DNA of 64,000 nt from Antedon mediterranea (Eukaryota > Echinodermata > Crinoidea > Comatulida > Antedonidae): positions 30,323,001 to 30,387,000 of the forward strand of contig NC_092673.1 in assembly GCF_964355755.1 (NCBI RefSeq), given 5' to 3'. This document shows positions 5,739 through 61,053 of the stretch, one piece after another. Position 1 is the first letter of the stretch, and the number at the start of each line of letters is the position of its first letter. The notes under the pieces are model-generated. The model made no database searches, was not told the origin of the DNA, and saw only the letters and a list, made by a program, of their open reading frames with translations. The translations under genes and the position numbers were made by a program.

Positions 5739-5956
5739 TTAAGATACAAAATGGCGAGTTCCAGACAGAACTTAGAATTGCACCTGAACTATACTGATGC
5801 GCCTACGACAGAAATTATTCAGACATTGATTACACGTTATGGCGACAATGAAGATTTTAATACTTGGTTAGATTTGCTGGAAGATAGTACATTACGTAAA
5901 TGTAAAATTACAGTGAAAATCTTTAAAGATACTAGAAACGGTCCTTCTTCTTGGAA
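5739..5956 (+). CDS. Gene A exon 1 (unknown N-terminal domain)
   Basis: Coding starts at ATG 5751, 12 nt after an acceptor (TTCGCTTACAG), and ends in phase 2 at donor GTAAGT (5957). It encodes 68 residues ending GPSSW plus a split Lys codon. Homologous exons begin genes B (11253) and C (24608). They share a central W-L, a basic strand-like stretch (V-x-I) and a terminal G-x-x-SW. I do not recognise this domain; it is not the usual vertebrate ApoL N-terminus. Confidence 0.75.
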
Positions 5957-7096
5957 GTAAGTTTTGCGTTTTAGATTACATAGCATATTGTCACAACACA
6001 TTTTGATATCGACTAACAACAGTATTTATTTCTATTTTTTCAAACAATTGTCGTTGGATGGATGTATTTTTTGTATTTTCGTCCCACTTTCATTCAATCA
6101 GCTATGTGTTTATATTGAAATTAAATTATATAAATCTAATACATTTCCCAATTGACGTCAACGGTGCAGATCCGTTTTTAATAGTGGGGGTGGGGGGGGG
6201 GGGGAAGTATGAAAATGAAACATTTTGCGAGCGAAGCGAGCAACCTTAGAAGGCCGCCAAGGGCGGTTCGTCCCTGGAAGGTCGGCTCTTTGAGTATACT
6301 TTATAGATGGTTTCAATTCATTTCTGAACACATACAAATTACGCCCAGAAGAATACAATTATTTTGGGTGACGCACTTTTTAGGCACTAGTCCTGATACC
6401 CCACTGGTTGTATTCACACAAAATATATACACTGTATTGGTATGTATTTTCTGAAATTACATACGATATGTCGATAGAAGTCTTACTTTCTATTTCATTT
6501 CAACAATTCAAATACTATTATGTCTATAACTCACGATCATGTATCTTAAAGATATTATTATATTGAGGATACTATGTAGGCCTAGAAAATCGTAAATCTT
6601 TCAAGGCTGCAATTGAGAAACGTTGGGCTGACCACCCACTAAAATTTCATCGAGGGGCCTATAAGCACTGTATGCTTGGCTTCTATACCCAGGATATCCT
6701 GGGAATCAAGTAAATAAGTAGAGAAAAGAGGAAACTGTAACGGTAGTATGCGTAAACGAGCTAGTGATTACGTAATTGTTGTAGAACGTATGCCTATCTG
6801 GGTTGATTTGCATAAATGCCAGGCGACGTCGACGTATAATAGAAATCTCACTGGAGTGTGGCTAGTTCAGACAATGCCAGCGTATAGAGCGGAGGTATGA
6901 GTTAGTATCAAGATATTACACTACTATGGAGAATTTACACAATAAAATATCTCGATTGTTATAAGCCTTACGTGTTCTTTCTTACGTGTTATCTCAACTC
7001 AAAGAAGTGGCCAGTGAGGCCGCAGTTACAGAAACACATTAAGAAAAACAAATATATATATATTGCTATGACGTTATCCAAATTCCTTCACTAGCA

Positions 7097-7138
7097 CTGA
7101 TGAAGGGCTATAGTGTTAGTTGCCCGAAAGCTCTGCTA
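7097..7138 (+). ncRNA. Hammerhead-ribozyme-like motif, copy 1
   Basis: CTGATGA, then a GGGC/GCCC stem with a longer loop, then GAAA and a short AGC-TCT-GCT hairpin ending in TA. Hammerhead motifs are known in the terminal repeats of Penelope-like elements. There is one extra A after CTGATGA and no clear stem I, so activity is uncertain. Confidence 0.45.
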
Positions 7139-7177
7139 ACTTTTCTGGCTGTTTTACTTTATATGTATATAGGCCTA

Positions 7178-7444
7178 CAGTACGTCGGAGAAACAAAAAA
7201 CACTCTCCGTATGAGAATGACACAACATAGATCAGCTATCAAAACATTAAAGCTTGATCAACCTGTAGCCGAACATTTTAATTCAGCTGGTCACTCGATT
7301 GCAAATTTCAGAGTTATTGCAATAGACCACGATGTCAAATGGAGCTACAAAACTCGCAAAGACAAAGAAAACCACTGGGAATTACTACTTAAAACCACAA
7401 AACCTTTTGGACTTAACATTAGGAACATACTCCCAGATCGGTAA
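7178..7444 (+). pseudogene. GIY-YIG endonuclease C-terminal fragment
   Basis: Starts at YVGETKNTLRMRMTQHRSAI, the catalytic Y and following helix of the GIY-YIG nuclease of Penelope-like elements. It ends NIRNILPDR and a TAA stop at 7442. The zinc-knuckle-like cysteines seen in the copy at 27045 are absent because the fragment begins after them. It is not a functional gene. Confidence 0.85.
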
Positions 7445-7673
7445 AATTATTCCATTGACTACCAAAATTTAAGTTTCAATATTAACCACCATTTAAGCTG
7501 TTTTTTAGTCTCATTCCAAAATTGTTTATATCTCTACCAAGCTACCTTCTTTGTTTTCCACTCTTATTCAGACTCCACCCTGGCTCCCTTTGTTATATTT
7601 CTTTTATTCCTGTCCACCCAGGCAGCACTTGCCAGCTTTATACTCTGACGCTATCCAAATTCCTTCACTTGCA

Positions 7674-7709
7674 CTGATGAAGGGCTAGTGTTGCCCGAAA
7701 GCTCTGCTA
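7674..7709 (+). ncRNA. Hammerhead-ribozyme-like motif, copy 2
   Basis: Same arrangement as at 7097 with a shorter stem-II loop (TAGTGTT). The CTGATGA and GAAA core boxes are unchanged. It sits in the 3' terminal repeat of the deleted Penelope copy. Confidence 0.45.
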
Positions 7710-8061
7710 ACTTTTCTGGCTGTACTTTATCGTTTTGATTTAGATTTTCGCTTTTTATTTTTGTATCTCCATTGAGATCCAGCCACTGATACCCACAGCA
7801 TTGTCATTTTTTTCAGTAATTTGCCTTTGGATTTATATATTTATATATATATATATAATTTTCGTTACTTTTTACAATTTTTAATTTATATAAGAGGTAA
7901 CCGGAAATAGAACATACTAATGTAAATTCGAATATTGTTACCTCCTTTTATCTCCTGCTTGACAGGTAATAACATTTTTAGGGCATCTTCATCAATTGAT
8001 AAGTTTACAAACATTCCAGAAGACGGGTGTAATTCATTATTTTTGTTATATTATTATCCAG

Positions 8062-8658
8062 AATGATGTTTGGAAATATGAAGCTTGTTATTCCTGCTAT
8101 CCCAGTAATTACAGTTTTATTCAGGGATACAGATTCAGAAATCAACAAGCCTATAGCGTCGTACCTAGAAAGCTTACAAGAGAACGAGGATGGCGACCGA
8201 CAACGCGCACTTGAAGACGCATCAACAAAGTGGAAGATGGCTCGCGACAGATTGGTACAACAACTACAGGTGGTTGCCATAGAAGTTGCGATCGAATGCG
8301 ACAAAAGTAACTGGTGCTGTAGTGTCGGTGGGTGGTACAATTTTGGGTATTGTTGGATTGGGCTTATCAATCGCAACTTTTGGAGTTGCAGCACCAATAA
8401 TGATAGCTGGAGGTGCCATTGCGGGTGCAGGTGGAGCTATGGTAATTGGTTCCTCAATTGCAGCTGAAGTATTATCAAGCCGAGGAGCCAAAGAAGCTGA
8501 TAAATTGATAAACGAGTGTAACGTCACGTTTGCTAATCTGCAAGAAGTTCGTAAGAAATACCAGGATGATCTGAGAGTTCACATGAAGGTTGCACAAATG
8601 ATTGACAAAGTTCGTATCGTTTTTGAAAAGGTTAAAGATTCCATCAGAATTATTATAA
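8062..8658 (+). pseudogene. Gene A exon 2 (ApoL membrane hairpin), frameshifted
   Basis: The acceptor is TATTATCCAG. The first base completes a Lys codon, followed by ATG ATG at 8063. The exon reads MKLVIPAIPVITVLF, a helical stretch with W-K-M-A-R, then breaks frame at about 8287-8293. It continues in the next frame as SNATKVTGAVVSVGGTILG and the glycine-rich hairpin, to donor GTAAGT at 8659. The ATG at the exon start is shared by all three genes and could act as an internal start. Confidence 0.8.
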
Positions 8659-8924
8659 GTAAGTTATTATAATACCGTACATTGATCGAGAGTAATTGTA
8701 TTCTCTTAAATATTATCATTAATAACTTAGACTCCTTCTATAAATAACATCTTTTCTTGCTCTTTACCATTATACCATACTTCAACAATTAATTACAATT
8801 AGGGTCGTTTGACAACTGGACAGACTAACGAAGATCTGCTGCTATTAATGGACCTTATTTTACAAAAATCTTTCTTCTTTATAACGTGTATCAATCATAA
8901 TAACTTTGTATAAAAACCTTTCAG

Positions 8925-8984
8925 CTATTGGAAACAAGATCACGCAATTTATTGGTACCATTAAAAAGGAAATTGTTTGTAAAG
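8925..8984 (+). CDS. Gene A exon 3
   Basis: A 60-nt exon between TTTCAG and GTAATA. It reads IGNKITQFIGTIKKEIVCK, matching exon 3 of gene C (IGQKIMQFIGTIKSITSK). It is too short to find without the paralogues. Confidence 0.8.
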
Positions 8985-9078
8985 GTAATACGTTTTAATT
9001 TTAAAAGTTTTTATTTTGTAGATAAAACATTGACATGCCTAATATACATTGTATTTAAAGAAAACATGAACACGAATT

Positions 9079-9137
9079 GCAACGCAAGCGACAGTTTGAA
9101 TATCCTTCGCTTGTGATTGGTTAAAAAAGGTTGCGTC
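9079..9137. mobile_element. MITE fragment
   Basis: GCAACGCAAG and CGCTTGTGATTGGTTAAA recur in the longer element at 10775-10922. It is a truncated copy in intron 3 of gene A. Confidence 0.5.
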
Positions 9138-9485
9138 CTTGTGGAAACTTTAGTCTTTCCATCAATTTGTGTTTTAATTTATGAAGGTTAAAATGTAACG
9201 CAGAGTATTAGCACTTTTTCGTAATAATATTTAAGATATGTTGGATAAACTTCCCTTTCAGTCACTTTAGCATTTTGATATAATGTGGCTACTGTTTTGC
9301 AAAACATAACACTTCTTAATTATGTATAATCCCTAGGCTTTAGCTTATTTTCTGTGAAGTCATGAATGTTTGTATTATCTTTAATTTTGAATTGCCATGT
9401 TACCAAGTAATCTGTTGTTTTTTTAAAATTGTTTTTGCTAGTCGATAATTTACATAAATACATTTAAATATTAACTTTATTCTAG

Positions 9486-9572
9486 TCTTTGGATCTGGTG
9501 CTAAAAATGGTTTTAAAATCGTTGATGCTGGTAAGGCCGTCAATGGAGTTGTGAGGTTAACGGTATCAACAG
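9486..9572 (+). CDS. Gene A exon 4 (variable)
   Basis: An 87-nt exon, from acceptor TTTATTCTAG to donor GTAAGA. It reads V-FGSGAKNGFKIVDAGKAV and onward to LTVST. Genes B and C have an exon here in the same phase, starting V-(V)G and rich in T/S/V, but with little residue identity. Confidence 0.75.
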
Positions 9573-9901
9573 GTAAGATCCACATGAACACGGTTTTTAC
9601 AGAATCTTACACTTTTAGAGTACTTTATTGCATACATATTGACCCTCGTCCTTTGGATTTGACGTAAAGCTGTTGGTCCTGTGTTTGTACAGCTCAGGTT
9701 TCTCCCGGTGTCTTGATCTTGGTAGGCACTGTAAAAACTTTTGGCCGTGGGTCCGTAGTTAAATTTCCTCAGTTTCATGTTAAGATTGAGGGTATAGGAA
9801 AGAAAAGAGAAATAAATGTTCTGAAATGAAAAATGAAAAAAAAGAATAAATACATTTAGATTTAGCTTACCTTTTCTCTATAACATTTTCAATTTGTTTA
9901 G

Positions 9902-10200
9902 TCGGAAGAACTCTTGATGAAATTGGTGGAGCTACATTTCGGGTAGCTGGTATGTCGCTTAAAATAGCTGGAATTGCCCTTGCTGGAGTGGCCATTGCAT
10001 TTGATATGTACACACTCATCACAACATCAATCGATATACATAAGGGTAATCTCGACAAAGCTGCTGATGAAATCGAAAAGATTGCAGAAGATTTAAAAAA
10101 TATGACACCACCAACGACTGAAGATACAATGATTGAATCATTAAAATCAGTTGCAGATGAACTTGAAATACCATGTGACGTCTTAGACATCGATAACTAG
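9902..10200 (+). CDS. Gene A exon 5 (ApoL C-terminal helices)
   Basis: The acceptor is TTGTTTAG and the stop is TAG at 10198. The exon encodes about 99 residues: VGRTLDEIGG, a hydrophobic helix (MSLKIAGIALAGVAIAFDMY), then HKGNLDKAADEIEKIAEDL and an acidic tail. The D-x-Y-T-x-x-x-x-S-x-x-x-x-x-G-N-L-D-x-A-A pattern is shared with genes B and C and resembles the C-terminus of vertebrate ApoL. Confidence 0.85.
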
Positions 10201-11252
10201 GGAAGAATTAGTAACCATGATAATTATCATCGATGATTACGACCAATAGGCTTTATGTTTTTTTTTCATTGATCTTTTATATTTGATATAGGCCTAAGCA
10301 TAGTATATAATAATATTTCTAGGATTGGCTGTAATTTTTGTTTTCTCTAACTTATTCTAGCCGCAAATATTGCCCTGGTTCAATAAGAACTTCAAACTAC
10401 GATCGAACAGGTTATTTTTTATATATTTAGATATATTAAAATGTTGAATCAAAGTTTTTGAATTGACAAATATCAGTCCATCAGTTGGTCCAGGATGATT
10501 AAAAACCAAATAAGTTGTTTCTTTATGCAACGCAAGTATAAAAATATGATGTAATAAGAATGGTCTTTAAAACAGTAATGATATGCAAGTATACATGCAA
10601 ACCGTAACTACATTATAGAATTACGAAAATCAAACTTTAGAAGTAATAGAAATGTGATAATACTGTAAGAAACATTGTATATAATACAATGTAATCAATT
10701 GAATAAAATATTTTCAATTCTGTTTTTTCATGTGCTTACAAAACAATAATAGCATAGCGTCAAATGTATTTATAAAGCTTTGTTCCCACTGGGAGATGCA
10801 ACGCAAGGACGTAGACGCAACGCAAACGAGTTGACCAATGACAAGGACATTCGAACAAATCCATCGCTTGTGATTGGTCAAATCCTTTATGTTGCGTTAC
10901 GTCGTTGTGTTAGGTCTCAAGCATTAATTCAACTCTGATGATGTTTTTTGATCGAAACACAAACGTGCACAAGGCAATTCACTGTCTGTTTGTAGAAAAT
11001 AACCTAAACCTGACGAGACACTGATCATCAACATCACCCAGAACCACCATGTTTAATTCGTTCTCTATCTATAAATATCAGAACTGGCTTTCACAGCAAG
11101 GCTAAAAATAAACACGTACCCTCTTTTGTTCATTTCCCGTAACGTATTATTTTCATGCATGGGTTTGTCGATTGTTCCGTATTGATACAAAGGAATGAAC
11201 CCTAGTTTATCTACATTACTACTATGCTTGCTGTCTAAAAACAAAATTACAA
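10201..11252. other. Intergenic region between genes A and B
   Basis: Contains the gene A poly-A signal (10702) and the MITE at 10775-10922. No clear TATA box or splice acceptor was found directly before the gene B start codon. Confidence 0.5.
10775..10922. mobile_element. MITE with internal inverted repeat
   Basis: TTGACCAATGACAAG (10831-10845) faces CTTGTGATTGGTCAA (10867-10881) with one mismatch. Outer arms are rich in GCAACGCAA and TTGCGTTACG. It lies between genes A and B and has no coding capacity. Confidence 0.6.
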
Positions 11253-11463
11253 ATGGCGAGCCGTAGACAGGGAATAGAATTGTACCTGACCAATATTGAT
11301 GGGCCTACCTCAGAAATTATTCAAACATTAATCAGACGTCATGGCAATGATGAAGATTTTATCACATGGTTAACCATTGCAGAAGAGATCACTTCACGTG
11401 AATGTGAACTTAGGCTATAGTGAAAATATTTCAAGAAAATAGGGATGGTTCGATTTCTTGGAG
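11253..11463 (+). pseudogene. Gene B exon 1 with 5-nt insertion
   Basis: Starts MASRRQGIELYLTNIDGPTS, parallel to gene A exon 1. After codon 54 the alignment with A needs a 5-nt insertion, and frame 0 meets TAG. In the shifted frame the exon ends with GSISW and a split Arg codon at donor GTAAGT (11464), so the splice site and phase are intact. Confidence 0.75.
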
Positions 11464-12517
11464 GTAAGTTAATTCGCTGCCCTGAATGGCTGCAGTGGAA
11501 AGTACCATTTGGTAATGGAAATGATTATAAAAAAACTGATTTTATATTTATTATTAGAGAGGTTTCAAAATCAAACTATACTCGTTTTGTAGTTACGAAT
11601 ATGACTGGTGATATTCGTCAACGCGAATACGCTTTACGAATATGAAATGGGGATCAGCTTAAAAGTTTCACAAATGTGTGACGTATCCGTTTTCGTTATC
11701 GTATTCGTAAGGTTGCGAAACCTCCCTAATATTACGCAATTGCAATATAAGTAGGCCTACATTGTTTTAGACATTCTGAACAGGCTAAAAATGACTTAAC
11801 ACCTCCATGGCTGATATTGACTTTTCACGATCGTCACAATTCAATTGATTAGCTCAGTCCCCCGTAAATACTTTACAATTTTTCGACTGCCCTTGGCTTT
11901 CCGATATTATCATTTTAGTCCCATTGTGTTTCTAAATTCAGAACGAATGACTTGTTTATTTGCTTACATACGTGTCGAAATCTATCTCACCTTTATAATT
12001 ATGTAGGCTAATTTCATTGACGTGAAAGTGGTTTTGTTGCTCTTGTTTTGGCCATAAAAGTGTTAGGAAAGGAAGGAAAGCCATGCCAAAGCGTCGGTTA
12101 AATGTGTTATATATACGATTCACATCATATTACTCCTTTTACTTCTTGCTTCATCAAAAAGTTTCCACTTTTAAGATGTACTGCACATAAAATGAAAACC
12201 AATCGCAGCTCAGGAGAAAATGCTTTGGCCTATTTACACCATAAGACATGAAATAAAGTCACGGTATACGGCACCTATTCACTCTTGCAAAGAAAACAAG
12301 GCCATATACATAGCTGCAGTCGCGTGCTCAAATTTGAGTTAGTGTTTACCGAACGACCAACCGACCGACCGACCATCCGACCGACACAAATAGCTGTAGA
12401 GTCGCGTTGCACGCGACTAAAAATGATGACATTTTTGTATTCACCCGAATGAATTCGCCCAGTGGAAAAAGTATTAGTATTATTAATCTTTATCTTTTAA
12501 GCAAACTTATTTTGCAG
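11464..12517. other. Gene B intron 1
   Basis: Non-coding. Contains the tetranucleotide MITE at 12294-12423 and one TAGGCCTA palindrome (11752). Confidence 0.7.
12294..12423 (+). mobile_element. GACC-repeat MITE, copy 1
   Basis: Runs from AACAAGGCCATATACA to ACGCGACTAAAA. AGTCGCGTGC near the left end and GCACGCGACT at the right end are inverted. The middle is a (CGAC)n tetranucleotide tract. Five more copies occur in the window. Confidence 0.7.
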
Positions 12518-13131
12518 AATGGGGTTTGACATCATGAATGTTGTTATTCCTGCCATACCAGTGATTGAAACGTTTCTTAGTGGCATGGGCCGAACCAACA
12601 GATTTAAAAGAAATTGGGCGTTAGACTACCTAAACAGTTTACAACGGATGGAGAATGACCGACTCGTGATTGACGGTGCGTTAACTCAATGGAAGATGGC
12701 TCGGCAAACATTACTGGAACGACTACGTGTAATAGCTTTGGAGATAGGAAATCACAGAAAGAACTCAAGTTATGCTAAGATAATCAGTGCTACAACGTCA
12801 CTGGGTGGAACACTGGCAGTTGTGGTTGCATTAGCCACAGTTACTGTAACTGCTGGTGCGGCTACGCCTTTTCTGGTGGGTGGAGGTGTTGCCGGAGTTC
12901 TAGGTGGAGTCACGGCTGGTGGTGCGTCGATTGCGGCTGATGTATTGTCGAAGAAAGGAGCCGAAGAAGCCAACAGACTGGTTGATGAGCATAATACGGC
13001 ATTCTCTAAACTATGTCAAGCTCAAATAACATACCAAGATGGCATAAGAACCCACATTAAAATTATAGAGACGGCTGGCAGAGCAGTGCTATTTGTCAAG
13101 AGAGTTAGAAATGCAACTACGGTTTCTCTAT
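12518..13131 (+). CDS. Gene B exon 2 (ApoL membrane hairpin)
   Basis: The acceptor is TTTTGCAG. One base completes a codon, then MGFDIMNVVIPAIPVIETFL. A charged helical part with Q-W-K-M-A-R precedes a 50-residue hydrophobic Gly/Ala/Val hairpin, then a helical stalk (HNTAFSKLCQAQITYQDGIR). The donor GTAAAT is at 13132. The exon is open throughout, 204 codons. Confidence 0.85.
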
Positions 13132-13544
13132 GTAAATATATAATTTTTAAATAACATTTTTATCTAAAAAATCACATGGTATTTTATATTTTCATAGTAC
13201 TTCTTATCTGAATAAAACAGATAACGTATACATTCTTTTCTCCTTTTAGAATCAAACTTAACAAAGCAGTGCTACAGCAATGACCCGAATAAATCGATAT
13301 AAAACTGATAAACATAAACATTGATCATTGATATTGGTGTATTGCAATAAAACGTTCCAATACTCCCTTTTTTTGGTAATTAATTTGTTTATGGATTCGC
13401 CTTGCCATATGCAGTTGGTATTTGGAATCGAGGGAAATGCATCCTAGGATAATACCCACTATTGAATACCTCCATGATCGAATGCGACAAGCACCTCATC
13501 TCATCGCCTTCATTAAAATCTTTTTTCTTTATCTTGTTCAAAAG

Positions 13545-13598
13545 GTATGGGACGAAAAAGCAGAAAGTACATTGGTACAATTAGAAGCATTGCACAAG
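13545..13598 (+). CDS. Gene B exon 3
   Basis: A 54-nt exon between TTCAAAAG and GTAATA. It reads MGRKSRKYIGTIRSIAQ, aligned with FIGTIKSITSK in gene C and FIGTIKKEIVCK in gene A. Phases are 1 in and 1 out. Confidence 0.75.
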
Positions 13599-13884
13599 GT
13601 AATACTTACTGTATTTTTATAATATTACAGAGGTACAAATCCGTATTATACTTAATCACAAAGATGATATTTGGTCAATTGTGTGCGAACCGGTGTCCTT
13701 TGGACGATGCTGACCATGTTGTACCATTTGAAATATTGGACGAGGCGAGTCGACGTGAAAGTGTTTCACGTTGCGGCTTACGTCCTAATGGGAACCAAGA
13801 TAGATGTTCACGTATATAAATATATATTGAACACTTAAATACTTTTAAGTATTAAACATTAACATGTTTTGAAATATACTGTAG

Positions 13885-13980
13885 TTGGAAATGTTCCTGG
13901 TACGTTACTAGCTGTTTTCCGGGTCGAGACCGATAGTGGTACTGCCATCACTGTGACAATAGAAAACGTAGCTCAACCAG
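13885..13980 (+). CDS. Gene B exon 4a (variable)
   Basis: A 96-nt exon from acceptor TACTGTAG to donor GTAAGA. It reads V-GNVPGTLLAVFRVETDSG and ends VAQP. It has the same start (VGNV) and phase as exon 4b about 100 bp downstream, consistent with exon duplication. Confidence 0.75.
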
Positions 13981-14078
13981 GTAAGATGAACGGATGTATT
14001 CTTTCTTCATTCATACATGCATTTGCTTACAATACAAATAAATAAGTGAAATAAACACAACACTATTTTATATTGTAG

Positions 14079-14168
14079 TTGGAAATGTACAAGTCACGTC
14101 ACCACCGAGTGTCAACAAGCTGGAGACGAATAGCGGAGCCGGGGTAATGCAAACAGCTGTATCGGCAG
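14079..14168 (+). CDS. Gene B exon 4b (duplicated variable exon)
   Basis: A 90-nt exon, from acceptor ATATTGTAG to donor GTATGG. It reads V-GNVQVTSPPSVNKLETNSG and ends AVSA. Genes A and C have only one exon in this place. Both copies are symmetrical (phase 1 in and out), so either can be included or skipped without changing frame. Confidence 0.75.
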
Positions 14169-14465
14169 GTATGGCTTAAGTGGATGATATTTTTATTTTA
14201 TTTATTTTATTTTTTATTTTAACGATATTTAATGAGGGTGATCCATCCAGCAGCTGATGATCATTTGGGACCCTCAGAACAGATACAATACACAAAATAC
14301 AACAAAAATAGAAAAGTTAAAGAAAAACAAAAACCAAACAAAATTAAATAAATTACATGAGAATAAAAATCTGAAAAAGAAAATTTGGAATATAGAAATA
14401 ACTGATATGTTAAATTAAGCAAAAATATATAGTATATTAGAATTAATGTTCTTTGCCTGATTTTG

Positions 14466-14963
<498 letters not shown>

Positions 14964-15004
14964 TATATATATAAATATATATATAAATATTTAGATCTAA
15001 TATT

Positions 15005-15405
15005 TTACAATTTAAAACCTGGAAAAGGAATACATAGTTTGGAGAAAAGTCATAAGTCTAGTTTTTAAAGATAGATAGAGGAAGATCATTGTAGAAATGA
15101 GGTGCATTGTAGCTGAAGGAGAGTTTGAAAATTTCAAGAGAGGGTTTAGGAATGTGAAGATTTCCTTTGGAGATTTGACGAGTAGCCATCCTCCCATTGG
15201 CAATAATGTTCGTTAGGAGATGGCATAAGCATTGAGGAGCAAGGAAGAAGATTTAGGGTTTTGAAAGTAAGAAAACCAAGTTGGTAGTGGAGTCTTTTCT
15301 GAAGAGGAATGGTATGGGCTAGTCCAAAGTGATCATCAGAGAGGTATGACATAGGATGAAGTTTGAGAATAATGCGTAAAGCTCTGCTTTGGATTGTTTT
15401 TGTTT
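15005..15405 (-). mobile_element. LINE 3' end remnant
   Basis: The minus strand reads fragments such as IPLQKRLHYQLGFLTFK and SFSYNAPHFYNDLPLSI, typical of the C-terminal region after the reverse transcriptase in CR1/L2-type LINEs. Stops and frameshifts show it is dead. It lies in the last intron of gene B. Confidence 0.6.
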
Positions 15406-15565
15406 ACTAGAGAGGTTAACTCGCGAGAGAGTGAAACTCGCGATGCTTTATCACTTCTTCAAATTTTCTATAGTAGGCCTAGTATTACATAATGTTTCCC
15501 AATATTTCAAAATTGGTGAAGAATAAACACTTATTTCATTTCTGGTATTTTTTCTGTTTATAAAG

Positions 15566-15927
15566 TCGCCAGGGCGTCTATAGGGCTTACGGATAACTTC
15601 GCCGAAGCAACCATGACGATAGCTGCCGGTAGTTTGATTCGATCGCTAGGAATGGTGGCTGAATCAATTGCCATTGGATTCGATGTATACACAATCATTT
15701 CAACAGCACTAGATATGAACGCGGGGAATCTTGATGAAGCTGCTGCTAAAATTGATCAACTTGTACAGACATTGGGAAACGTTACGCCACCAACGTTAAA
15801 TGATGTCATCATTGAATCAGTCATCCCAGTTGCGGGTAATCTTGGTATCCCATTTGAGGGGGACTATGTAGTCACCCGCACCGCACATGTGTTCTACTAT
15901 AAAGAAGAATGGGTGGTCACTTCGTAG
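15566..15927 (+). CDS. Gene B exon 5 (ApoL C-terminal helices)
   Basis: The acceptor is TTTATAAAG and the stop is TAG at 15925. It has the conserved hydrophobic helix, the N-L-D-E-A-A-A-K-I segment and the T-P-P-T turn. Compared with A and C, its C-terminal tail is longer and ends in an aromatic stretch (HVFYYKEEWVVTS). Confidence 0.85.
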
Positions 15928-17944
15928 AATAAACATGTCTGATCATTATAACGTTGCAAACGTGTGTGGTTATTACCTTCAAAGTAATCGAAGACAATTC
16001 AAAATACTATAAATTATTTCCTAGGTACATCAATAACGTATAACCGGAAATAGTTTTTGTTGTATATAGGCCTAACATTTTCAATTCAATGTCCATTTAA
16101 TGAAAAGCTCCGGTCTCAAATCAAATTGAGAGGATCCGATACAAAAAAAACTTATTTCTGCAATGATTAGTAGCGCTAGCCTACTTAAGTTGTTTCAAAA
16201 TAAAAGTGGTTGGAAGGAGACCAGTATATTCAATTTCTAATTATTAATAACATCGTGTGTATATTTGTGTTTAGTGAGTTAACTCAAAATAGATAAACTG
16301 ACTTACCATTAATGTGACAGAACAAAAGTTGATTCCATTAAATGCTTCATTTATATTACAATGCGTTTATGATATTCTTCGTAATGAATACTCTCGCATG
16401 ACATATAAAACACAACTACCATGTAAGTAATAAATGGTATACTCCACGCTCATCGGAGTGAATGAAGTGATTTACAATTACACCTGTAATAAACCTGCTA
16501 ATAATGCATCAGGTTGTTCATGTGTCGAAAAGCCGAAATTTTAAATATGCATGAAAACGATTAAATGTGGATTCCAAACATTGAATGAATGACTAAACAA
16601 ATTGACAACTACACCTGTAATACACCTGCTAATTATGCATCAGGATGTTATGTCCCGAAAACCCGAATTTTATATATGCAGGAGCAAAATTATATTTTGC
16701 CAAGTAAAAATTAAACAAACAAGGCCAACAGCCATAAAGTCGCGTGCTACAATGCATAGTGATACCGGACCGACAGACAAACAGACCAACCGACAGACAG
16801 ACAGACCGACAGACAGACGGACCGACCGACATAGTGAACTATACTGACCGAAATTACTGAACATGTTTAAAAATGTTGAAATGTTTAAAAACATTTATAT
16901 TTTTTTAATTTACACGTGCGTAGCCTGTCACTTTTGACGTGCTCGTATAACGTAATTTCGAGTTGAAAAGTAAGTCAACAAAACAGAAATCGGGCAAAAA
17001 GAGTGCGCAATAACATTTAACGCGCAGTGCGCACGCAAAAATCTGCGCACTCATGGCAATTTTGTAAACGCTTAAAATTGCCTGAAACGTACTCTTATTT
17101 CATCGAAAATAAATTTTTAAAATTTTAAGCGCGCGTACGCATGCGTTACATGCGCTACGCACGTAATTGTATTGCCATATGATGATTTATGCCCTGAAAT
17201 TTATGAGTACCAAATTTTATTTAATTGTGATTCATGGTTGTTAAGATAATGATTACAAACGTGATTTCGTTAAATCGTGCGTAGACCGCGTAATTTTTTA
17301 TTGCGCACCGTGAAAACATAACCACATCGATTCCTGGCCATAAGGAATATTCTGTGAAAAATTGACTTAGCTAGAGTAAACTGATATCAAGATAAGGTCA
17401 TAAAGCGATAAAACGCATAGTGATACCGGACCGACAGACAGACAGACAGACCGACAAACAGACCGACAGACAGACCGACAGACAGACCGACCGACCGACA
17501 TAGTGAACTATAGAGTCGCTTTCACGCGACTAAAAATGCCATGCACAACCATTATTGCTCTCATTCGATTCGATACAGTACGGTACTCAATATTAACTGA
17601 ACGGTAAAAATATGTGTGTACCGGTATGTCTCATCAAGAGACGGCATCATTTGTTTTTAACACGGAGAGCTGTTGTTAAATGTTGTACTCGGCAAATAGA
17701 ATCTCATAGGCCCTCGCACGACGCATTATTGATATTGGTTATTGTTGACTCTCTGATGTAGACACTTGCCTTGCAAAATTGTGTTTTAGTTTAGATGCAA
17801 GAAAAATTAAATCAGGTTACATCCCTTTAGGTTTGAGGGAAAACAATTTTAAATGCAAGGAAAAATCAACTAAACCTAAATTTCTATAGTAAAAGTCTCA
17901 TTGAAGTACAGTATATATTGATATATAAATTGTTTTACATTAAA
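15928..17944. other. Intergenic region 3' of gene B
   Basis: No gene was recognised. Two diverged tandem copies of about 130 bp start near 16476 and 16605 (CACCTGTAATA, ATGCATCAGG). The long MITE at 16717-17535 follows. Confidence 0.6.
16717..17535 (+). mobile_element. GACC-repeat MITE, long copy
   Basis: Starts ACAAGGCCAACAGCCATAAA and ends CACGCGACTAAAAA. (GACA/GACC)n tracts lie at 16764-16830 and 17425-17503, flanking a 590-bp unique interior shared with the minus-strand copy at 25058-25844. It has no coding capacity, and terminal AGTCGCGTG/CACGCGACT inverted repeats. Confidence 0.75.
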
Positions 17945-18101
17945 CTAACAGCAGCCCTCAATCACCATTACATGGTCATGGTATTGTAAGTTCACTCACA
18001 ATATCGACATTAACGATTCAATCACTGTATTTTTAGCCGTTGGTGGCTCCATGTTTTGTCAAATCTTCTACAACTGTTTGTGTTTGATCAGAAGCTTTGT
18101 C
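17945..18101 (-). pseudogene. ApoL-like gene D, truncated last exon
   Basis: About 157 bp match the 3' half of the last exon of gene C (21715-21870) on the same strand, from the stop codon back to GCTTTGTC. Homology ends abruptly where the foldback transposon at 18102 begins. No other exon of this copy was found, so the transposon or a deletion removed the rest. Internal stops are present. Confidence 0.7.
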
Positions 18102-19985
18102 TTTAAATATCGCCCCCTCTAGGAAGTGTAGACGATGGTTCTCGGAATGATAATGACTCGTGTAACAAGGTTTTAGAAGGACTTTCTGGCTCGGACGTTT
18201 TCGGTCGGTTACCATTATTGAAATGCTTGCTTTCGTAAAACTAAACCTACTCTCTTTCACAGTGTCTTAGGTGATTAATTTAGCTTTTAAAGTATGGTGT
18301 TTACTGTTCTGTTTTTAGGGCGGAGATGGGGAGGCGGAGTTCATTTGAGGGAGGTGCTTATTCGAGGAGTACGTTAAATTGTTTTGTTTTAATAATACTA
18401 TGAACATTTATAATAAATATAATAAATCCTCAAATAGATATGAAAAGTGGTAAAAAGAATAACAAACGCTTGGTATTGTAGATGAGTCCAAATACAAATA
18501 GTATAATTGTGTTGGGCGGTGGACTGGGCGGCGATTATTATTCAGTTCTTCCGATGTAATTTTATACACTATTCCCCACAATATACTCCGATGTTTTATG
18601 AATCTATATATAAATTATGGTTAATTCTGACATAGTCGAGCACAATGCAAAAACTTCGGTACAAATCTCCGCCTTGGATACCTACCTTATCTATCTGAAA
18701 TGTACCTCGAAACGTAGATTTGATAACATTAGTGTTCACATCGACGCTATTGTTCCATATTTCTATCTTAGGAAGATATTATAAAGAGTTTTTTAACAAA
18801 ATTTATGATTTCAACATTAGATTTTCATCTCAATTTCAATTCTTCCCGGTCAAAGTTATTTCCTGGTTTAAGATAAGTTCACCTTGCAACAACCTGGTTT
18901 CAAATATTTTCTCTCTTTTATGCAAAAGGGAGCAGTTAAAATAATAGATTTGACCCTAAAGGTGACTGGAAACAGGCACTTTCCATCAATCAATACAGTG
19001 TCCCTTTGGAAGACGAAAAAAAAAATCAGATAGTAGGACTGGAGCTTAACTGGAGCCATTAGTCATAGGCATTTCAGTTTTTTGTTTATTTTAAAACATA
19101 CCGCGCGTGTGTGAAGGTACAGTAGTTAAATAATAGAAATTATATGCAAATTAATAAAGATCAAATTAAATATACGCCATAAAGAATCAGAATATATTGT
19201 GGGGAATAGTATTATAAAATTACATAGGGAGATTTGATGATAAGAAATTTTTCGAGCGAAATCCTGAGTTTTATTGAGTAAGCTGGCAGGAATAACTGAG
19301 GCTATCCGTGTCCCGTTAGGACCGAGATGTCTGCCCATGTTGCAAGCCGTAATGTCTTCTTTCTGGGGCCCACTCTGTCACGGCAGTTAGTTTCAAAAGA
19401 TGATTAAATTAAATAATGTATTAATAATTATTAGGATGGTATTCATTTGAATAAACGCCTCTCCAATAAAATATTACTTTGAATAAAAATCCCCTCCCCC
19501 CCCCCCAACAACCCAACTATCTAATAAACGTACATCCACATATTTATAATAACACAATTATACTATTTGTAGTAAAATTCATCGCACTGTTATCTACAAT
19601 TTACCAAGCATTTGTTATTCTTTTTACCACTTTTCATATCTATTAGAGGATTTCATTTGATTATAAATGTTACCATATTATTAAAACTAAACAATTTAAC
19701 ATATATCCCTCGAATAAGCACCTCCATCAAATGAACTCCGCCTCCCCAAAGGGCCCTACCAAACAATAAAAAACTATACTTTAAAATGTTATTAATCATC
19801 TAAAACACTGTGAAACAGAGTATAGTTTAGTTTTACGATTATGTCAAGCATTTTCAATAATGATAACCGACAGAAAACGTATAAGGAGAACATTATCATT
19901 CCGAGAACCATCGTCTACACTTCCTAGAGGGGGAGCGAGCGAAGCGAGCTCACCCTCTAGTATATTTAATTGATCTTTATTAATT
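18102..19985. mobile_element. Non-coding foldback DNA transposon, copy 1
   Basis: The left part (about 18110-18560) is an imperfect inverted copy of the right part (about 19530-19935). Examples are TCTAGGAAGTGTAGACGATG near 18120 and its complement near 19915, and GTGGTAAAAAGAATAACAAA against TTTGTTATTCTTTTTACCAC. The core (18560-19380) recurs around 37000-37690 and 58260-58870. No transposase frame was found, so the element is non-autonomous. The right end carries the GCGAGCGAAGCGAGC motif. Confidence 0.7.
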
Positions 19986-21714
19986 TGCAGTATAAATTAT
20001 ATATTTTGTTTTTATATTTTGTCAGAATTAAGCATAATTTATATATAGATGCTACCTTACAACTTGCGCATAAAATCAAAATAAATATAGCAACCAAACT
20101 CGTATTATATAAAGCCAAGCTCGTACACGGGTAGGCTTACGTCCCGGGATGAATTGTGACGCTCTGTATTCCGCATTATTTATCCGGGGTGGTTCAGCAA
20201 CCCGGGTAACTCTTTACATCGTTTACGCCGACATATCTGCAGATACGACTCGGATTGCACTATTCCAGATTATTTTCGGAATTGCGATTGCCTGCGATGT
20301 AAAAGGGTATAATTTATATTTATAGTTAAAACAAAGTTATTTATCGTTGTTGTTTTATTTTTCAGATCTATTTTAATATTGACTTCCTACACAAGATCAA
20401 CGCGATACAAATAATTATTATATATGTGAACACAGGAGAAATAACAGTCAGAGAGATGGTGTAAAATATCAATGACAAATGTTTTATTCAAATAGGAACT
20501 AGAACTAAAAACCAAGCTGAAAACCAAACTGGACAACCCCAGATTGACCGGACAATAATGCCAGCATACGTCAACTAGAAAATGTAGTAAATTAAAACAA
20601 TAATTTGATCGTAATTGATAATATAACCTATCTATTTAATAAGCATAAAAACCATTATATAAAAGTGCGAGGTGCAACTACAACTGAACAATACGTAAAA
20701 TACCGTTATTAACTAATAGTTATAAAAAGAAATCATATGTAAAAGAAATCCGATCACTAAACTTCAATACAAATCGTTCGATTTGTATTTTAAAGTAGCA
20801 TTTCTACATGTACACAAGTATATGTATACATTATTACATTCTATAGGCCTATCATTAAAGAGACTGACTGCCTTACTTTATACTAAAATATTATTAACTT
20901 AAAAAGGACACAAAGTAACTGGTCATCATCACAATCTTAAATAACACAATTATAGTTATACAATGTAGTAGAAAACAAAACAGAATGGACATATTTGGTA
21001 GGGTATTGATTGAAACTGTTTTTCAGTGGATTTGATAAAAAGGTAATCATAATCATTAACAACAATTGTTAATTTATAAAGCATAAAAATAGAATAACAA
21101 CAAAGGAACTCGAATCCCACCTTGCATTTATACTTTATGCTATGTTTACCTCGGTTACATCTGAACCCGTTCTCTCATCTACTTATTGCAATTCCTTGCC
21201 GTACATAGGCAATACAGTATTATGCTTGTCGATAACTTTACTCTTCGACTTCTAACTTCTTTATAACAAAGTTTCTGTTAATGATCGTTATTAATTTTCC
21301 TTTATTAAGACGCTAATCCTAATAACAGTAATGTACAAAATAACGCTCCGCATCATTATATGTTACATATTATAAGTGAACTATTTGTTACCACGTAGCG
21401 ACATCGGGCCGGCTACACTGAAATTTGGCACTTGGCATCAGAGCGTCTGCGGAAATGGTTACGTAACATTAGTTAGAATCGTTCATTCACGCTTAGTTTG
21501 ATAGAATCAGTAAAAGTATTCTTTCCACTTTTTAAACAAGACAACGAGCATTACTTATATATTAAAATTAAGAATTAAAACAAAATGTATATAGCAATAA
21601 TAATAATCAGGAACATGAATTCAATATAATAAAAAATAAAAAAGCATGTTCTTTGTAATCGACTTTCTAAAGGCAAAAACAGTTACATATTTTGATTGAT
21701 GTTTACTTTTACAA
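19986..21714. other. Intergenic region 3' of gene C
   Basis: Nothing recognisable: AT-rich, stops in all frames, one TAGGCCTA palindrome (20844). It probably includes the gene C 3' UTR. Confidence 0.5.
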
Positions 21715-22016
21715 CTAACAGCCATCTTCAATATCTCCTTCACATGGTATTTCAAGTTCACTCACAACTGACATGAACGATTCAATCATTGTATCTTCAG
21801 CCGTTGGTGACTCTGTGTTTTTCAATTCATCTACAATCTTTTGTATTTCATCAGCAGCTTTGTCAAGATTACCTTTATGCATCTCAATTGATGTTTTGAC
21901 GATTGTGTATATATCCAATCCAATGGCCAATGCACGAAACGCCGCTGCACCTACTGTAGTTATTTTTAACGACATGCCAGCTATTTTGATTCCAATATCA
22001 TCAAGATTTTTTCCGA
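21715..22016 (-). CDS. Gene C exon 5 (ApoL C-terminal helices)
   Basis: The acceptor is TTTATTTAG. It reads VGKNLDDIGIKIAGMSLKIT, then a hydrophobic helix with GLDIYTIVKTSIEMHKGNLD, and the acidic end EIPCEGDIEDGC and stop. Confidence 0.85.
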
Positions 22017-24608
22017 CTAAATAAATTGAATAAGAATGAAATTATTGCATTATAATAATGCTTTTTCTGGAAAAGAATATAGGCCTAATTGACCAAAACA
22101 TACATAACCAATGTTAAAATATTCACACTCGTAAAAATGTGAAATATTATGAAGTTTAATTAAAAATACATATTTTCTGCTTAAATGAGCGATGGCAGTC
22201 TTACCAGTTAATGCGGTGGATTTCAGTATTCCAGTGAAGACCTTTCCACTTTTGGTTACTATCTCGATATCTTTTTGATTGCTAGATCCAACTACTAAAA
22301 TAAAAATAGATATCTGAATATAAGGCATACCTTTAGTTAGTGTAGCACTAACCCAGAATGACATTAGAAAACACAAGAAATCTACAACAAGTACAGTTTG
22401 ATCAGGGAAGACTGAACACTCTTCACTGGTCTGATACTGCTTCTGAATACAATCCACCGACGTCGGTATCCTTTCCGGAGTTTTGAAAAAATATTCAAAA
22501 CCTTCTTATCAGTATTGCATGAGAAAACTTACTATCTCAATTAGATATACTGTTAGGAGCCTGCCACACAGGCAAACGCACTTCAAATGATCACCTCAAC
22601 ATTATTCTTCTACAGTTACTGCAGTAACGTATGATATCAGTTTGCTTCAATGTTGAAATGTACTAATAATTGCATAAACAGACAACCAAAAAAAACGTTA
22701 TTGCAAAAACTACAGTAGATTAATTCTAACATGGTCTCTTACCTTTAGAGGTGATGCTTTTGATTGTACCGATGAACTGCATAATCTTCTGTCCGATAAC
22801 TAAATGATTAAAAAATGATTACCTGTTAGATAGACAATATTTAATAGAAATTAACCCACCCACATAAAAAATACCTTTTGATTGTTTAAGCGTCCTCACA
22901 TGTTCAGAGTATTTTTAATAATAGCATCACAGTGTACGATTTATTATGAGAAATATTAGAATTCTTAATTTTGCTGACAGCTAAAATAAAAGAATTTCAA
23001 TGTTAATTTCTGGAAACTAAAATCGGTATGCGTTAAAACTATACTTCGGGCAACATGTATTTATAGTTATAACCTTTCTGGTAGGAAATTAACAGAAAAT
23101 GTTCAGTGTGCGTACTATGTACAATTTCAATTTAACTGGCTTACATAAAGTAACCTTGACTGTCTTTCCATCTTTCTTGAAAAAGGTCACGACTTTACCA
23201 ATCTTCTGTGCAGTTTGTATGTAGATTTTAAGATCATTTTGATATCTCCCTTGAACTTCTTGCATATTATCACACATGGCATTATACCCTTCCATTAGTT
23301 GATTTGCTTCTTTAGTTCCTTTACTTGATAATATGTCAGCTGTAATTGAGGCACCAATTGACGTAGCTGCACCCGCACCCGCAATGGCACCTCCAAGTAA
23401 CATTAAAGGCGATGCAAGACCAAAGGTTAGAAAACTAAGTCCAAATCCGACCGCGCTCGTAACACCACCAACGACCGCTACTGAGGAACCGGTTACCTTG
23501 GCAATATTCGACGAGGATCTATGATTTCTGACTCTCTCAACAATCGCCTGAAGATTTTCTATCAATGTATTCCGAGCAATCTTCCATTGAGTTGATGCTT
23601 CTTCTAGTGCCAGTCGGTCCTCGTTCACTTTTAGACTATCTAGATAGCGCATTAATAGCTCGGTTGTCTTAAATTCTATTGCCAAACTACCAAACAAGTT
23701 TTCAATCACTGGTATTGCAGGAATAACAGCATTCGTCAATACAAACCTCATCCTTAAAAAAATTCAAACAACAAGAAATTTAATTCAACTTTCAAATCAT
23801 TTAAACATACACTCATTTTAGTTAAGCAGGTTAGGGCCTAAATAAAAATATCATTAATTCCACAATCTTTTACATACACGCATTTTGCGTACCTGTATCA
23901 CCAAATTAATTTGCTGGTTTTTGATAAATTATAATTTTAACCTAGTGCTTTCTACACATTATTCATAGGGTACGGTTTTTAGTCGCGTGGAAGCGACTCT
24001 ATAGTTCACTATGTCGGTCGGTCGGTCTGTCGGTCTGTCGGTCTGTCGGTCTGTCTGTCTGTCGGTCCGGTATCACTATGCATTTTATCGCTTTCTGATC
24101 TTATCTTGATATCAGTTTAATCTAGCTAAGTCAATTTTTCACAGTATATTCCTTATGGCCAGGAATCGATGTGGTTATGTTTTCACGGTGCGCAATAAAA
24201 AACATTTCAACATTTTTAAGCATGTTCAGTAATTTCGGTCAGTTGGTAGGTCGGTAAACACTAAGCACGTGACTGCAGCCATCTATATGGCCTTGTTTTC
24301 TGCAGGCCTACTTGACGTTGATATTTGTACAATATTCGACACACATGGAAAATATTAAATCATAGTAAAAAGTTAGGCCTATTTATTAGAAATATATTAT
24401 GATCTTACTTCCAAGAAAATGAGCCTTTTCCTGTTTTTCTTTTGACTATTGCAACCGTAAGCTCTCGTCCAATTGATTGTTTGATTTTTTTGGCGATGCT
24501 TAACCATAATTTGTTATCCTTTTCATCACCATTCAGTTTAATTGATTGCTGAATACGCTCTATGTCAGAATCAGTAATATTTTTAAGAATTATCTGTGAA
24601 TTCTCCAT
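21715..24608 (-). CDS. Apolipoprotein-L-like gene C (intact)
   Basis: Five coding exons on the minus strand: 24608-24409, 23752-23145, 22799-22743, 22294-22205 and 22016-21715. Spliced length is 1257 nt, 418 residues and a stop, with no break. Residues 1-67 are the unknown N-terminal domain. A helical part follows, then at about 155-205 a Gly/Ala-rich hydrophobic hairpin (SSVAVVGGVTSAVGFGLSFL), the signature of the ApoL family, then SSKGTKEANQL and a helical stalk. The last 100 residues carry a second hydrophobic helix and the amphipathic HKGNLDKAADEIQKIVDEL. By family analogy the product inserts in membranes or forms channels; its target is unknown. The start at 24608 is chosen to match A and B and lies after a possible acceptor (TTCATTTTTAG, exon from 24637); an upstream in-frame ATG at 24653 would add 15 residues. 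No signal peptide is seen. Confidence 0.85.
22205..22294 (-). CDS. Gene C exon 4 (variable)
   Basis: A 90-nt exon, V-VGSSNQKDIEIVTKSGKV to STALT, between TTATTTTAG and GTAAGA. It occupies the same place and phase as A exon 4 and B exons 4a/4b. Confidence 0.8.
22743..22799 (-). CDS. Gene C exon 3
   Basis: A 57-nt exon reading IGQKIMQFIGTIKSITSK, between ATCATTTAG and GTAAGA. Confidence 0.8.
23145..23752 (-). CDS. Gene C exon 2 (ApoL membrane hairpin)
   Basis: The acceptor is TTTTTTAAG and the donor is GTAAGC. It reads MRFVLTNAVIPAIPVIENLF through QWKIARNTLIENLQAI and RNHRSSSNIAKVTG, into the hairpin. It provides the unbroken reference that shows the 14-nt loss in gene A. Confidence 0.85.
23976..24298 (-). 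mobile_element. GACC-repeat MITE, copy 3
   Basis: Lies inside gene C intron 1. It starts TTTTTAGTCGCGTGGAAGCG and ends GCCTTGTTTTC, with a (CGGT/CTGT)n tract at about 24012-24070. It is in reverse orientation to copies 1 and 2. Confidence 0.7.
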
Positions 24609-24637
24609 ACTTGATTTGTGTAGCGTTGAAGAGGTGA
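24409..24637 (-). CDS. Gene C exon 1 (unknown N-terminal domain)
   Basis: Coding runs from 24608 to 24409, MENSQIILKNITDSDIERIQ to GKGSFSW plus a split Lys codon, before donor GTAAGA. It aligns end to end with exon 1 of genes A and B despite low identity, keeping W-L, the basic V-x-I strand and the terminal G-S-x-SW. Confidence 0.8.
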
Positions 24638-25943: not shown

Positions 25944-26347
25944 TACCGGGCGGTTTAGAATTAATGTTCTTTGCCTCTTGTGTTTATATATATAAAAGTA
26001 TCTCTTCGGAGATCCCGCCTCGTGAATAAAAATACTGAAAGATGAGGGCGTATCAATTTGATCTCTGTTGCGCGTGCGTACAACTGAGGACTAGTGCTGT
26101 TCCGCCGTACCACGCCGAGAATGTTAAAGAGTCGTTATCCAATCGAGTTCGAACAATACCATGAAAGTCCCAGTGGTCTAATGGTTAGGACATCTGCATA
26201 TCAAGCAGGCGGTCCGAGTTCGAGTCTCGGTTGGGGTGACTTATTCTCATTCTCACAGATTTCCTCATCTTTATCGTTTCAAATTAATTAATTAAATTTC
26301 AGTATATCACCGGGTGGTTTAGAATTAATGTTCTTTGCCTCTTGTGT
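25944..26347 (+). repeat. tRNA-containing repeat unit, copy 2
   Basis: Flanked on both sides by the direct repeat GGTTTAGAATTAATGTTC (near 25952 and 26318), so it may be one unit of a tandem array. Otherwise it matches copy 1 at 14622-14963. Confidence 0.65.
26167..26237 (+). tRNA. tRNA-like gene or SINE head, anticodon AUC (Asp)
   Basis: A 71-nt cloverleaf can be drawn: acceptor GTCCCAG/TTGGGGT (with G-U pairs), D stem GTCT/GGAC, anticodon stem TCTGC/GCAGG with loop ATATCAA (anticodon ATC at 26200-26202), and a perfect T stem CCGAG/CTCGG with loop TTCGAGT. Box A and box B are good. An unmodified AUC anticodon is unusual for Asp, and the sequence lies inside a dispersed repeat. It is therefore more likely the RNA polymerase III head of a SINE than a working tRNA. 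Confidence 0.5.
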
Positions 26348-26521: not shown

Positions 26522-26751
26522 TGCAAGTGAAGGAATTTGGATAACGTCATAGTATAAAGCTGGCAAGTGCTGCCTGGGTGGACAGGAATAAAAGAAATAT
26601 AACAAAGGGAGCCAGGGTGGAGTCTGGATAAGAGTAGAAAACAAAGAAGGTAGCTTGGTAGAGATATAAACAATTTTGGAATGAGACTAAAAAACAGCTT
26701 AAATGGTGGTTAATATTTAAACTTAAATTTTGGTAGTCAATGGAATAATTT

Positions 26752-27835
26752 TACCGATCTGGGAGTATGTTCCTAATGTTAAGTCCAAAAGGTTTTGTGG
26801 TTTTAAGTAGTAATTCCCAGTGGTTTTCTTTGTCTTTGCGAGTTTTGTCGCTCCATTTGACATCGTGGTCTATTGCAATAACTCTGAAATTTGCAATCGA
26901 GTGACCAGCTGAATTAAAATGTTCGGCTACAGGTTGATCAAGCTTTAATGTTTTGATAGCTGATCTATCTTGTGTCATTCTCATACGGAGAGCGTTTTTT
27001 GTTTCTCCGACGTACTGTTTGCCACAAATATTACAGTATATGAGATAAATGACGTTTTTGGTTAGACAATTAATTGATTGTCTTATCCGAAAAATGCGGC
27101 CAGTTTGGTTACTCTAAAATTTTTCAGTAGAATCAACCAATGAACAAGTTTTGCAAGATTTGCCGCAAAGGTGACTGCCCAAATTTTGGCTGTCATGAGA
27201 GTTAATTTCACTCTTAAATTTGGATCTGACTTATATATCACGAAGGTTGGGAGGTCTACGAAATGCAATAATGGGTGGTTCCGGAAAAACAGTCCTGAGA
27301 CGTTCTGTGGACTGTAGAATGGGCATATGTTTCTCAATAATAGCCCGTAATGGAGGCAACCTAGGGTGGTAGGTTGTGACCAATGGCACTCTGGTCGATT
27401 TTTTTGGCTGACGTGGTTTGTACGTCAGTGTTTGACATCGAGGAATATCTTTTGCTTTCTTTATAGCAGTTTCGATTTATTCCTTCTTGTAATTTCTATT
27501 CCGGAGATGTCCTTCGGTACGATTCTGAAAATCTAAATCTGAAGAACAGATACGTCTGATATGTAATGCTTTACTGTACGGTATGTTTTTAGTACAGTGT
27601 CGGGGGTGACAACTGCTAGGGAGCAGGTACATATTTTTATCCGTGGGTTTACGGAATAGGTCAGTTTTGAGTTTACCATTTTCTATGGTCACTATAGTGT
27701 CCAAAAAAATCAACGCTACTAGTGGATTTGGTAGCTGTAAATTTGATAGTTGGGTGGGCTGAATTAATATTGAGAAGAAAAGATTCCAAATTATCTTCAC
27801 CATGGGTCCAGATCATGAAGTTGTCGTCAATGTAT
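26752..27835 (-). pseudogene. Penelope-like RT 3' part and GIY-YIG endonuclease
   Basis: Resumes the RT at Y-I-D-D-N-F-M-I-W. After SSVDFLDT and FRKPTDKNMYLLPSSCHPRH a stop interrupts at about 27475. The linker region has further frame breaks. The endonuclease part keeps IYCNICGKQYVGETKNALRM and ends NIRNILPDR at 26752. Confidence 0.85.
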
Positions 27836-41019: not shown

Positions 41020-41606
41020 TTTGCACTTCAATTTAAATCACAATCTACCGTTGGTCCTAAATATTTATGTTCTTTTACAGTATCTATCTTTTGGTCGTTT
41101 AATACAATATTATCAATAACACTTTTCTTCTTTCTGAAATCAAAAATTAATTCTTTGGTCTTATCCGCGTTTAATATAAAACATTTTTTCATACACCACG
41201 ACTCAAACAACTTAAGTGTATTTCTATACTCATCTTCACAGTTATGTTGAATTATACCCGTAACAACAGAATCATCTGCATACTTAACTATACTAACATT
41301 ATTACTTTCAATTTTGAAGTCATTTGTGTAAAGAGAGAAAAGAACAGGAGAAAGAACACATCCCTGAGGGACACCAGTGTTAGTGCAAAGAGTACTAGAA
41401 TAATGTCCACCTATCCTAATCACCTGTGGTCTGTTTGATAGAAAATCACCAATCCACAAGATTATATGTGAATTAATATTTATATCACAGAGTTTCCGGA
41501 GCAGAATATGTGATTGGATAGTATTAAAGGCTGAAGAGAAATCGAAGAACATAGAGCGAACATATGATCGCAGTCTCTCAAGAAGAGTTAAGACTGCATC
41601 ACTTAT
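41020..41606 (-). pseudogene. L2-like reverse transcriptase, block 2
   Basis: A 174-codon open frame (41552-41028) with DFSSAFNTIQSHILLRKL, TGVPQGCVLSPVLFSLYTND and the catalytic K-Y-A-D-D-S, then FDFRKKKSVIDN and YLGPTVD. It lacks the N-terminal RT part because an inner LINE is inserted at 41607. Confidence 0.85.
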
Positions 41607-61039: not shown

Positions 61040-61053
61040 AAGTATCTACTATC

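Follow-up and report, generated by a model that had tools for sequence, protein, structure and literature searches.

An ApoL-like gene cluster with an additional N-terminal domain in the crinoid Antedon mediterranea

The locus considered here is a tandem group of three genes, A, B and C, in a stretch of 64,000 nucleotides from the crinoid Antedon mediterranea (assembly GCF_964355755.1, contig NC_092673.1, referred to as C4; the stretch, C4:30323001-30387000, is called the window). It raises the question of what kind of protein these genes encode and, in particular, what the exon of about 67 residues at their N-terminal end is. A sequence-only reading had seen ApoL-like genes whose first exon is not a known domain, and had proposed them as a candidate new system. 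After analysis of the window and of the genome to which it belongs (354,431,138 bases, 18 contigs), the claim of a new system is not supported. The family is already known, the genes being a variant of ApoL, and the new part is the fused N-terminal domain, which is absent from the searched libraries.

Gene C, on the minus strand, consists of five exons with GT-AG borders at every intron, joined in one open frame of 417 amino acids. Exon 1 (24409..24608), which encodes the N-terminal domain, ends in phase 2 at TGGAA/GTAAGA, and another in-frame ATG lies 15 codons upstream. Exon 2 (23145..23752) encodes an IPAIPVI segment, helices, a Gly-rich hydrophobic hairpin (protein residues 150-208) and further helices. 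It is followed by two phase 1-1 modules, exon 3 (22743..22799, 19 codons) and exon 4 (22205..22291), the latter with a T-x-[ST]-G-x-x-x-x-G motif common to gene D and to copies a and b on contig C7, which are described below. Exon 5 (21715..22016) encodes a hydrophobic helix with a conserved Asp, an amphipathic helix and the stop. A Pfam match of exon 4 to SM-ATX was rejected (E value 0.0034, 18.0 bits against a cut-off of 29.8).

The profile search of the gene C protein against the Pfam family ApoL (PF05461) gave 42.7 bits (E 6e-11), above the curated gathering score of 25.9 bits that decides membership, with residues 128-383 aligned to positions 65-290 of the 298 of the profile. The ApoL-like nature suggested earlier is thereby borne out. 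An excerpt of PMC4517135, in which PF05461 is mentioned, concerns an algal virus that has an ApoL-like gene. Of the seven matches that the profile gave across the genome, five (genes C and D, two places on C1 and one on C7) exceed the cut-off; exons 1-2 of gene D (31.2 bits) and exon 2 of C7 copy a (28.2 bits) pass by themselves, and single exons of the interrupted genes stay under it (exon 5 of A, 25.4 bits; exon 2 of B, 17.6; the 3' piece of exon 2 of A, 14.9). Hydropathy of the gene C protein shows three hydrophobic stretches, at residues 70-94, 150-208 and 333-357, and in the last of them all seven exon 5s read (genes A to E and C7 copies a and b) carry an Asp. Two features of ApoL are thus present, a hydrophobic hairpin and, further on, a hydrophobic helix that bears an acidic residue. 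No obvious signal peptide was seen in the gene C protein, from which it would follow that the protein works inside the cell.

Genes A and B, both on the plus strand, repeat this plan. Gene A has exons at 5751..5956, 8062..8658, 8925..8984, 9486..9572 and 9902..10200, with intron phases 2,1,1,1 as in gene C. Gene B has its exon 1 at 11253..11463, exon 2 at 12518..13131, exon 3 at 13545..13598, exon 4 at 13885..13980, a second exon-4-like exon at 14079..14168 and its last exon at 15566..15927, so that its phases read 2,1,1,1,1. The common exon order and phases noticed earlier were found as placed; however, the frame of A shifts within exon 2 (about 8282-8297) and that of B within exon 1 (about 11405-11420), so that C is the sole uninterrupted gene of the three in the assembly, B has an extra exon, and the accompanying fragment (17999..18101, minus strand) is a scrap of about 35 exon-5 codons in two frames. 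Exon 2 of B is open and begins with its own in-frame ATG, at which translation of gene B could start. The kinship of the genes is beyond chance for exon 2 (B against C, E 2.5e-37, 36% identity), for exon 5 (A against C, E 3e-32) and for exon 1 (A against B, E 1e-17); the match between the first exons of C and A is weak by itself (blastp E 0.001).

The cluster extends beyond the window, as far as C4:30407611, and covers about 79 kb in the order A, B, scrap, C, fragment (30388733-30387540), E and D. Gene D is an intact sister of C, with 421 amino acids and an identical five-exon plan; exon 2 of gene E is split over two frames. A second cluster of three copies (a, b and c) lies on C7 at 19.43-19.46 Mb. 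In the family survey, pieces of genes A to E, of C7 a and of the C1 group were compared with 224 kb (the window and 160 kb of the genome), and copy counts from the genome searches are lower bounds. With at least seven copies or pieces on C4, where three are frame-broken (A, B and E) and two are mere pieces, and at least three on C7, the description of the family as fast-diverging and tandemly copied holds. A more distant, two-part ApoL-like gene with an exon-2-like piece, in which no exon 1 was detected, occurs at C7:638335-638778. A further ApoL group on C1 (C1:3905079-3918634) has two broken copies and three that are open over about 330 codons.

Exon 1 is found in at least eight copies, all in the C4 and C7 clusters (A, B, C, D, E and the three of C7), and each of the eight is followed, on its own strand, by an ApoL exon 2. 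Its C-terminal end reads GPSSWK in A, GSISWR in B and GSFSWK in C, in agreement with the G-x-x-SW-K/R pattern given before, and the seven of the eight copies in which the donor was read (A, B, C, D and those of C7) have it in phase 2, immediately behind the W codon and one base pair. The whole-genome protein searches used exon 1 of C (E <= 0.001) and those of A and C7 b (E <= 1) as queries; relatives of the gene C exon show 77% and 72% identity. A profile built from the five exons of C4 gave the first sight of those on C7, with E values of 1.5e-4 for b and 0.011 for a among 5,170 frames, and leave-one-out profiles regain every copy, the best E value being 3e-30 (D) and the worst 9.4e-9 (C7 c). 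Exon 1 was not seen at the 30388 kb fragment or at the scrap in the window, and the C1 group has no exon-1 match within the 30 kb read there (best match E 11). One additional candidate, C4:30318128-30318391, was judged a chance match, as its E value went from 0.029 with the first profile to 0.96 with the fuller one and it has no GxSW end.

The searched libraries offer no convincing family for this exon, as had been anticipated. Among the seven copies scanned (all but C7 c), Pfam gave no consistent family at E <= 10; weak matches to Class_2_docking_dom (one copy, E 0.0075), CagY_M (two copies, best 0.16) and STAS (one copy, 0.19) were rejected. NCBIfam has no family for the two copies scanned. 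In a PDB search with a profile of seven copies, the best full-sequence E value (0.0015) belonged to a designed repeat protein and no single stretch passed. The proposed structure prediction did yield a low-confidence model, in the order strand-helix-helix-strand; searched with Foldseek, it gave 67 matches at E <= 10, the best at 1.2 and none at 0.001, and the ferredoxin-like entries among them are not counted as evidence. In the alignment the C7 exons have fewer residues between helix 1 and the final strand, and the second helix is thus perhaps not common to all copies. Taken together, these searches support the view that exon 1 encodes an undescribed N-terminal domain, as far as the searched libraries reach.

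Selection was estimated from the ratio of nonsynonymous to synonymous substitution rates (dN/dS). Between C and D the ratio is 0.61 over 414 codons (bootstrap 95% 0.45-0.83), with 0.67 for exon 1 (0.24-2.47), 0.90 for exon 2 (0.57-1.48), 0.20 for exons 3-4 (0.07-0.49) and 0.55 for exon 5 (0.29-1.16); between C7 a and b it is 0.57 for exon 1 and 0.41 for exon 2. The C-D protein as a whole is under purifying selection, and its exon 1, taken separately, cannot be told from a neutral sequence. A dN/dS of 4.5 on the hairpin between C and D (bootstrap 1.7-16.4, Fisher p 0.009), being one of 53 rows, is not accepted as positive selection and is kept as a lead only; the whole-hairpin ratios of other pairs do not repeat this excess (C-A 0.76, D-A 0.68, C7 a-b 0.29).

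The explanation that we regard as on balance probable is that the genes form a lineage-expanded ApoL-like subfamily of intracellular, membrane-inserting proteins with an N-terminal docking or control domain. The protein is probably intracellular and membrane-inserting: the Gly-rich hairpin and the C-terminal hydrophobic helix would insert into a target membrane, whether of an organelle, a vacuole or an intracellular microbe, in the way of vertebrate APOL1 and APOL3, and the exon-1 domain may act as a docking or control module that positions the protein or keeps it inactive. By analogy with the vertebrate APOLs, the innate defence role proposed earlier would be the likeliest use. It is possible, though rather unlikely, that a small, new alpha-beta domain encoded by exon 1 controls an ApoL effector, the two parts making up an intracellular innate-defence executioner whose N-terminal domain senses or docks and whose release drives hairpin insertion, by a logic like that of gasdermin or MLKL. 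The favoured explanation draws on the PF05461 match of gene C, the separate matches of its paralogs, the hairpin and HC2-like helix seen by hydropathy, the conserved Asp, the eight copies of exon 1, the purifying selection on C-D as a whole and the published APOL plan with its APOL3 activity. Other results weigh against it. Exon 2 of C7 copy b has no PF05461 match in Pfam at E <= 0.1. For the region of the non-classical four-helix bundle at the ApoL N-terminus, where the profile match starts only at position 65 of 298, the AlphaFold2 model of exon 2 (four rows) is unusable, with a predicted local distance difference test (pLDDT) value of 35.4, and no fold search was made from it. The resemblance of a profile of five exon 2s to SmhB (E 2.2e-4) and AhlB (two sequences, E 8.5e-4), the remaining 13 of 16 listed matches being at E 0.1 or worse, speaks for the explanation, but it is confined to the low-complexity Gly-rich stretch of the hairpin. 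The AlphaFold2 model of exon 1 (three rows) is weak (pLDDT 65.2, predicted template modelling score 0.39), which leaves the fold uncertain. The ratio of exon 1 between C and D, compatible with neutrality, also speaks against it, and the frame breaks in three of the five exon-1-bearing C4 copies also fit relaxed selection.

These last points bear on the idea that the genes are mostly decaying paralogs, the C4 cluster fading with only C and D still open and little present function. The frame-broken A, B and E, the two fragments and the near-neutral ratio of exon 2 between C and D (0.90, 0.57-1.48) would fit such decay; however, neither C nor D has lost an exon, a splice site or its frame, their whole-protein dN/dS is below 1, and the C7 cluster retains the same exon 1, so that we consider it improbable. 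The same constraint, in C-D (0.61) and in C7 a-b (exon 2, 0.41), suits ApoLs with a housekeeping role in membrane remodelling, in vesicle traffic or mitochondrial dynamics, in which the expansion would be unrelated to pathogens and exon 1 would be a partner-binding domain; the sections of two reviews that bear on this (PMC10937811, PMC13177371) see control of membrane dynamics as the basic APOL function. This possibility is somewhat unlikely, since lost copies, broken frames and identities between copies as low as that of B and C in exon 2 (36%) do not resemble a single-copy housekeeping gene. It might also be supposed that exon 1 is a divergent form of a known adaptor, TRADD-N or a death fold, and the protein thus of a known adaptor-effector kind. 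TRADD-N was tested because, according to part of PMC8195603, this adaptor domain is broadly expanded in marine invertebrates, and the beta-alpha-alpha-beta order of the weak exon-1 model would be compatible with it. Nevertheless, neither TRADD-N (PF13820, PF09034) nor a death-fold domain was matched by the seven copies in Pfam at E <= 10 or by the PDB profile search, and as regards the death fold the low-confidence model contains strands. In hhalign against the NCOA6 TRADD-N piece of the same genome, the score of exon 1 was reached by 19 sequences in each of two controls of 200, shuffles and random frames, a weak test with a single short template; the maximum of the random-frame control (125.6) arose because this control contained frames of the family itself. 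Within the scope of these searches, a known adaptor is quite improbable.

Repeats and remains of mobile elements are found around the genes. The bare palindrome TAGGCCTA is strongly over-represented in the window, with 18 sites (such as 5047, 10289, 20844 and 57319) against 0.40 expected, and in the 224 kb, with 93 against 1.64; its sites have only weak adjacent preferences and no common flanks. It lies in no exon of A, B or C, and the extra bases of the broken exon 1 of B resemble TAGGCCTA. A tRNA-Asp-like unit at 26167-26238 on the plus strand was detected by Rfam (50.8 bits) and ARAGORN, and a stretch at about 14793-14855 in an intron of gene B is similar to it by eye; since both lie in repeated flanks, they probably represent a tRNA-derived short interspersed nuclear element. 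Intron 1 of gene A contains an open reading frame (7043-7444, plus strand) that is nearly identical to another at 26751-27113 (minus strand). The latter matches GIY-YIG below threshold (E 0.0014, 19.4 bits, cut-off 22.6), and the pair is presumably Penelope-like. Retrotransposon remains occupy 39-52 kb (minus strand) and 60993-63215 (plus strand), with RVT_1 matches at 60993-63212 (101.9 bits) and 41031-41612 (80.8 bits), and a tandem repeat of a 21-bp unit (6.9 copies, 99% alike) spans 525-669.

Compared with known systems, the weakly modelled exon 1 recalls TRADD-N and NCOA6_TRADD-N, small alpha-beta adaptor domains that are fused to varied partners, but it gives no sequence or profile match to them. 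The hydrophobic hairpin of SmhB and AhlB, the B components of alpha-pore-forming tripartite toxins, resembles the exon 2 profile; however, these toxins are bacterial, and the match covers only about 55 Gly-rich residues and nothing elsewhere. The C1 group of the same genome shares the ApoL match (46.7 bits) but differs in having a single open frame in its three open copies and no exon 1 in the region read.

The closest comparison is with vertebrate APOL1-APOL6. To our knowledge, vertebrate APOLs have no N-terminal domain of this kind. The excerpts of PMC13177371 and PMC10937811 likewise show none in the published APOL plan, which there comprises an N-terminal helical bundle, a flexible Gly/beta-branched transmembrane hairpin able to enter membranes, a membrane-addressing hairpin (MAD) and HC2-LZ2 with acidic residues; they also describe a detergent-like action of APOL3 on intracellular Salmonella. 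Part of PMC8316464 argues against a colicin-like N-terminal domain in APOL and for pore-lining residues that are C-terminal. A search for the word 'invertebrate' found it in none of the APOL reviews and papers on APOL structure that were covered, and a literature search of partial coverage found no ApoL genes with such an N-terminal domain. Like the vertebrate genes, those described here form a tandem multigene family, gene C matches most of PF05461, and its hairpin, HC2-like helix with an acidic residue and amphipathic tail follow in the same order. They differ in the extra N-terminal exon of about 67 residues, a domain that deserves definition, and in an architecture of five or six coding exons (intron phases 2,1,1,1), in which two small ones of phase 1-1, exons 3 and 4, come before the last. 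Work on APOL is centred on mammals, and an ApoL branch outside mammals that has an N-terminal domain of its own would help to compare how ApoL membrane insertion is controlled.

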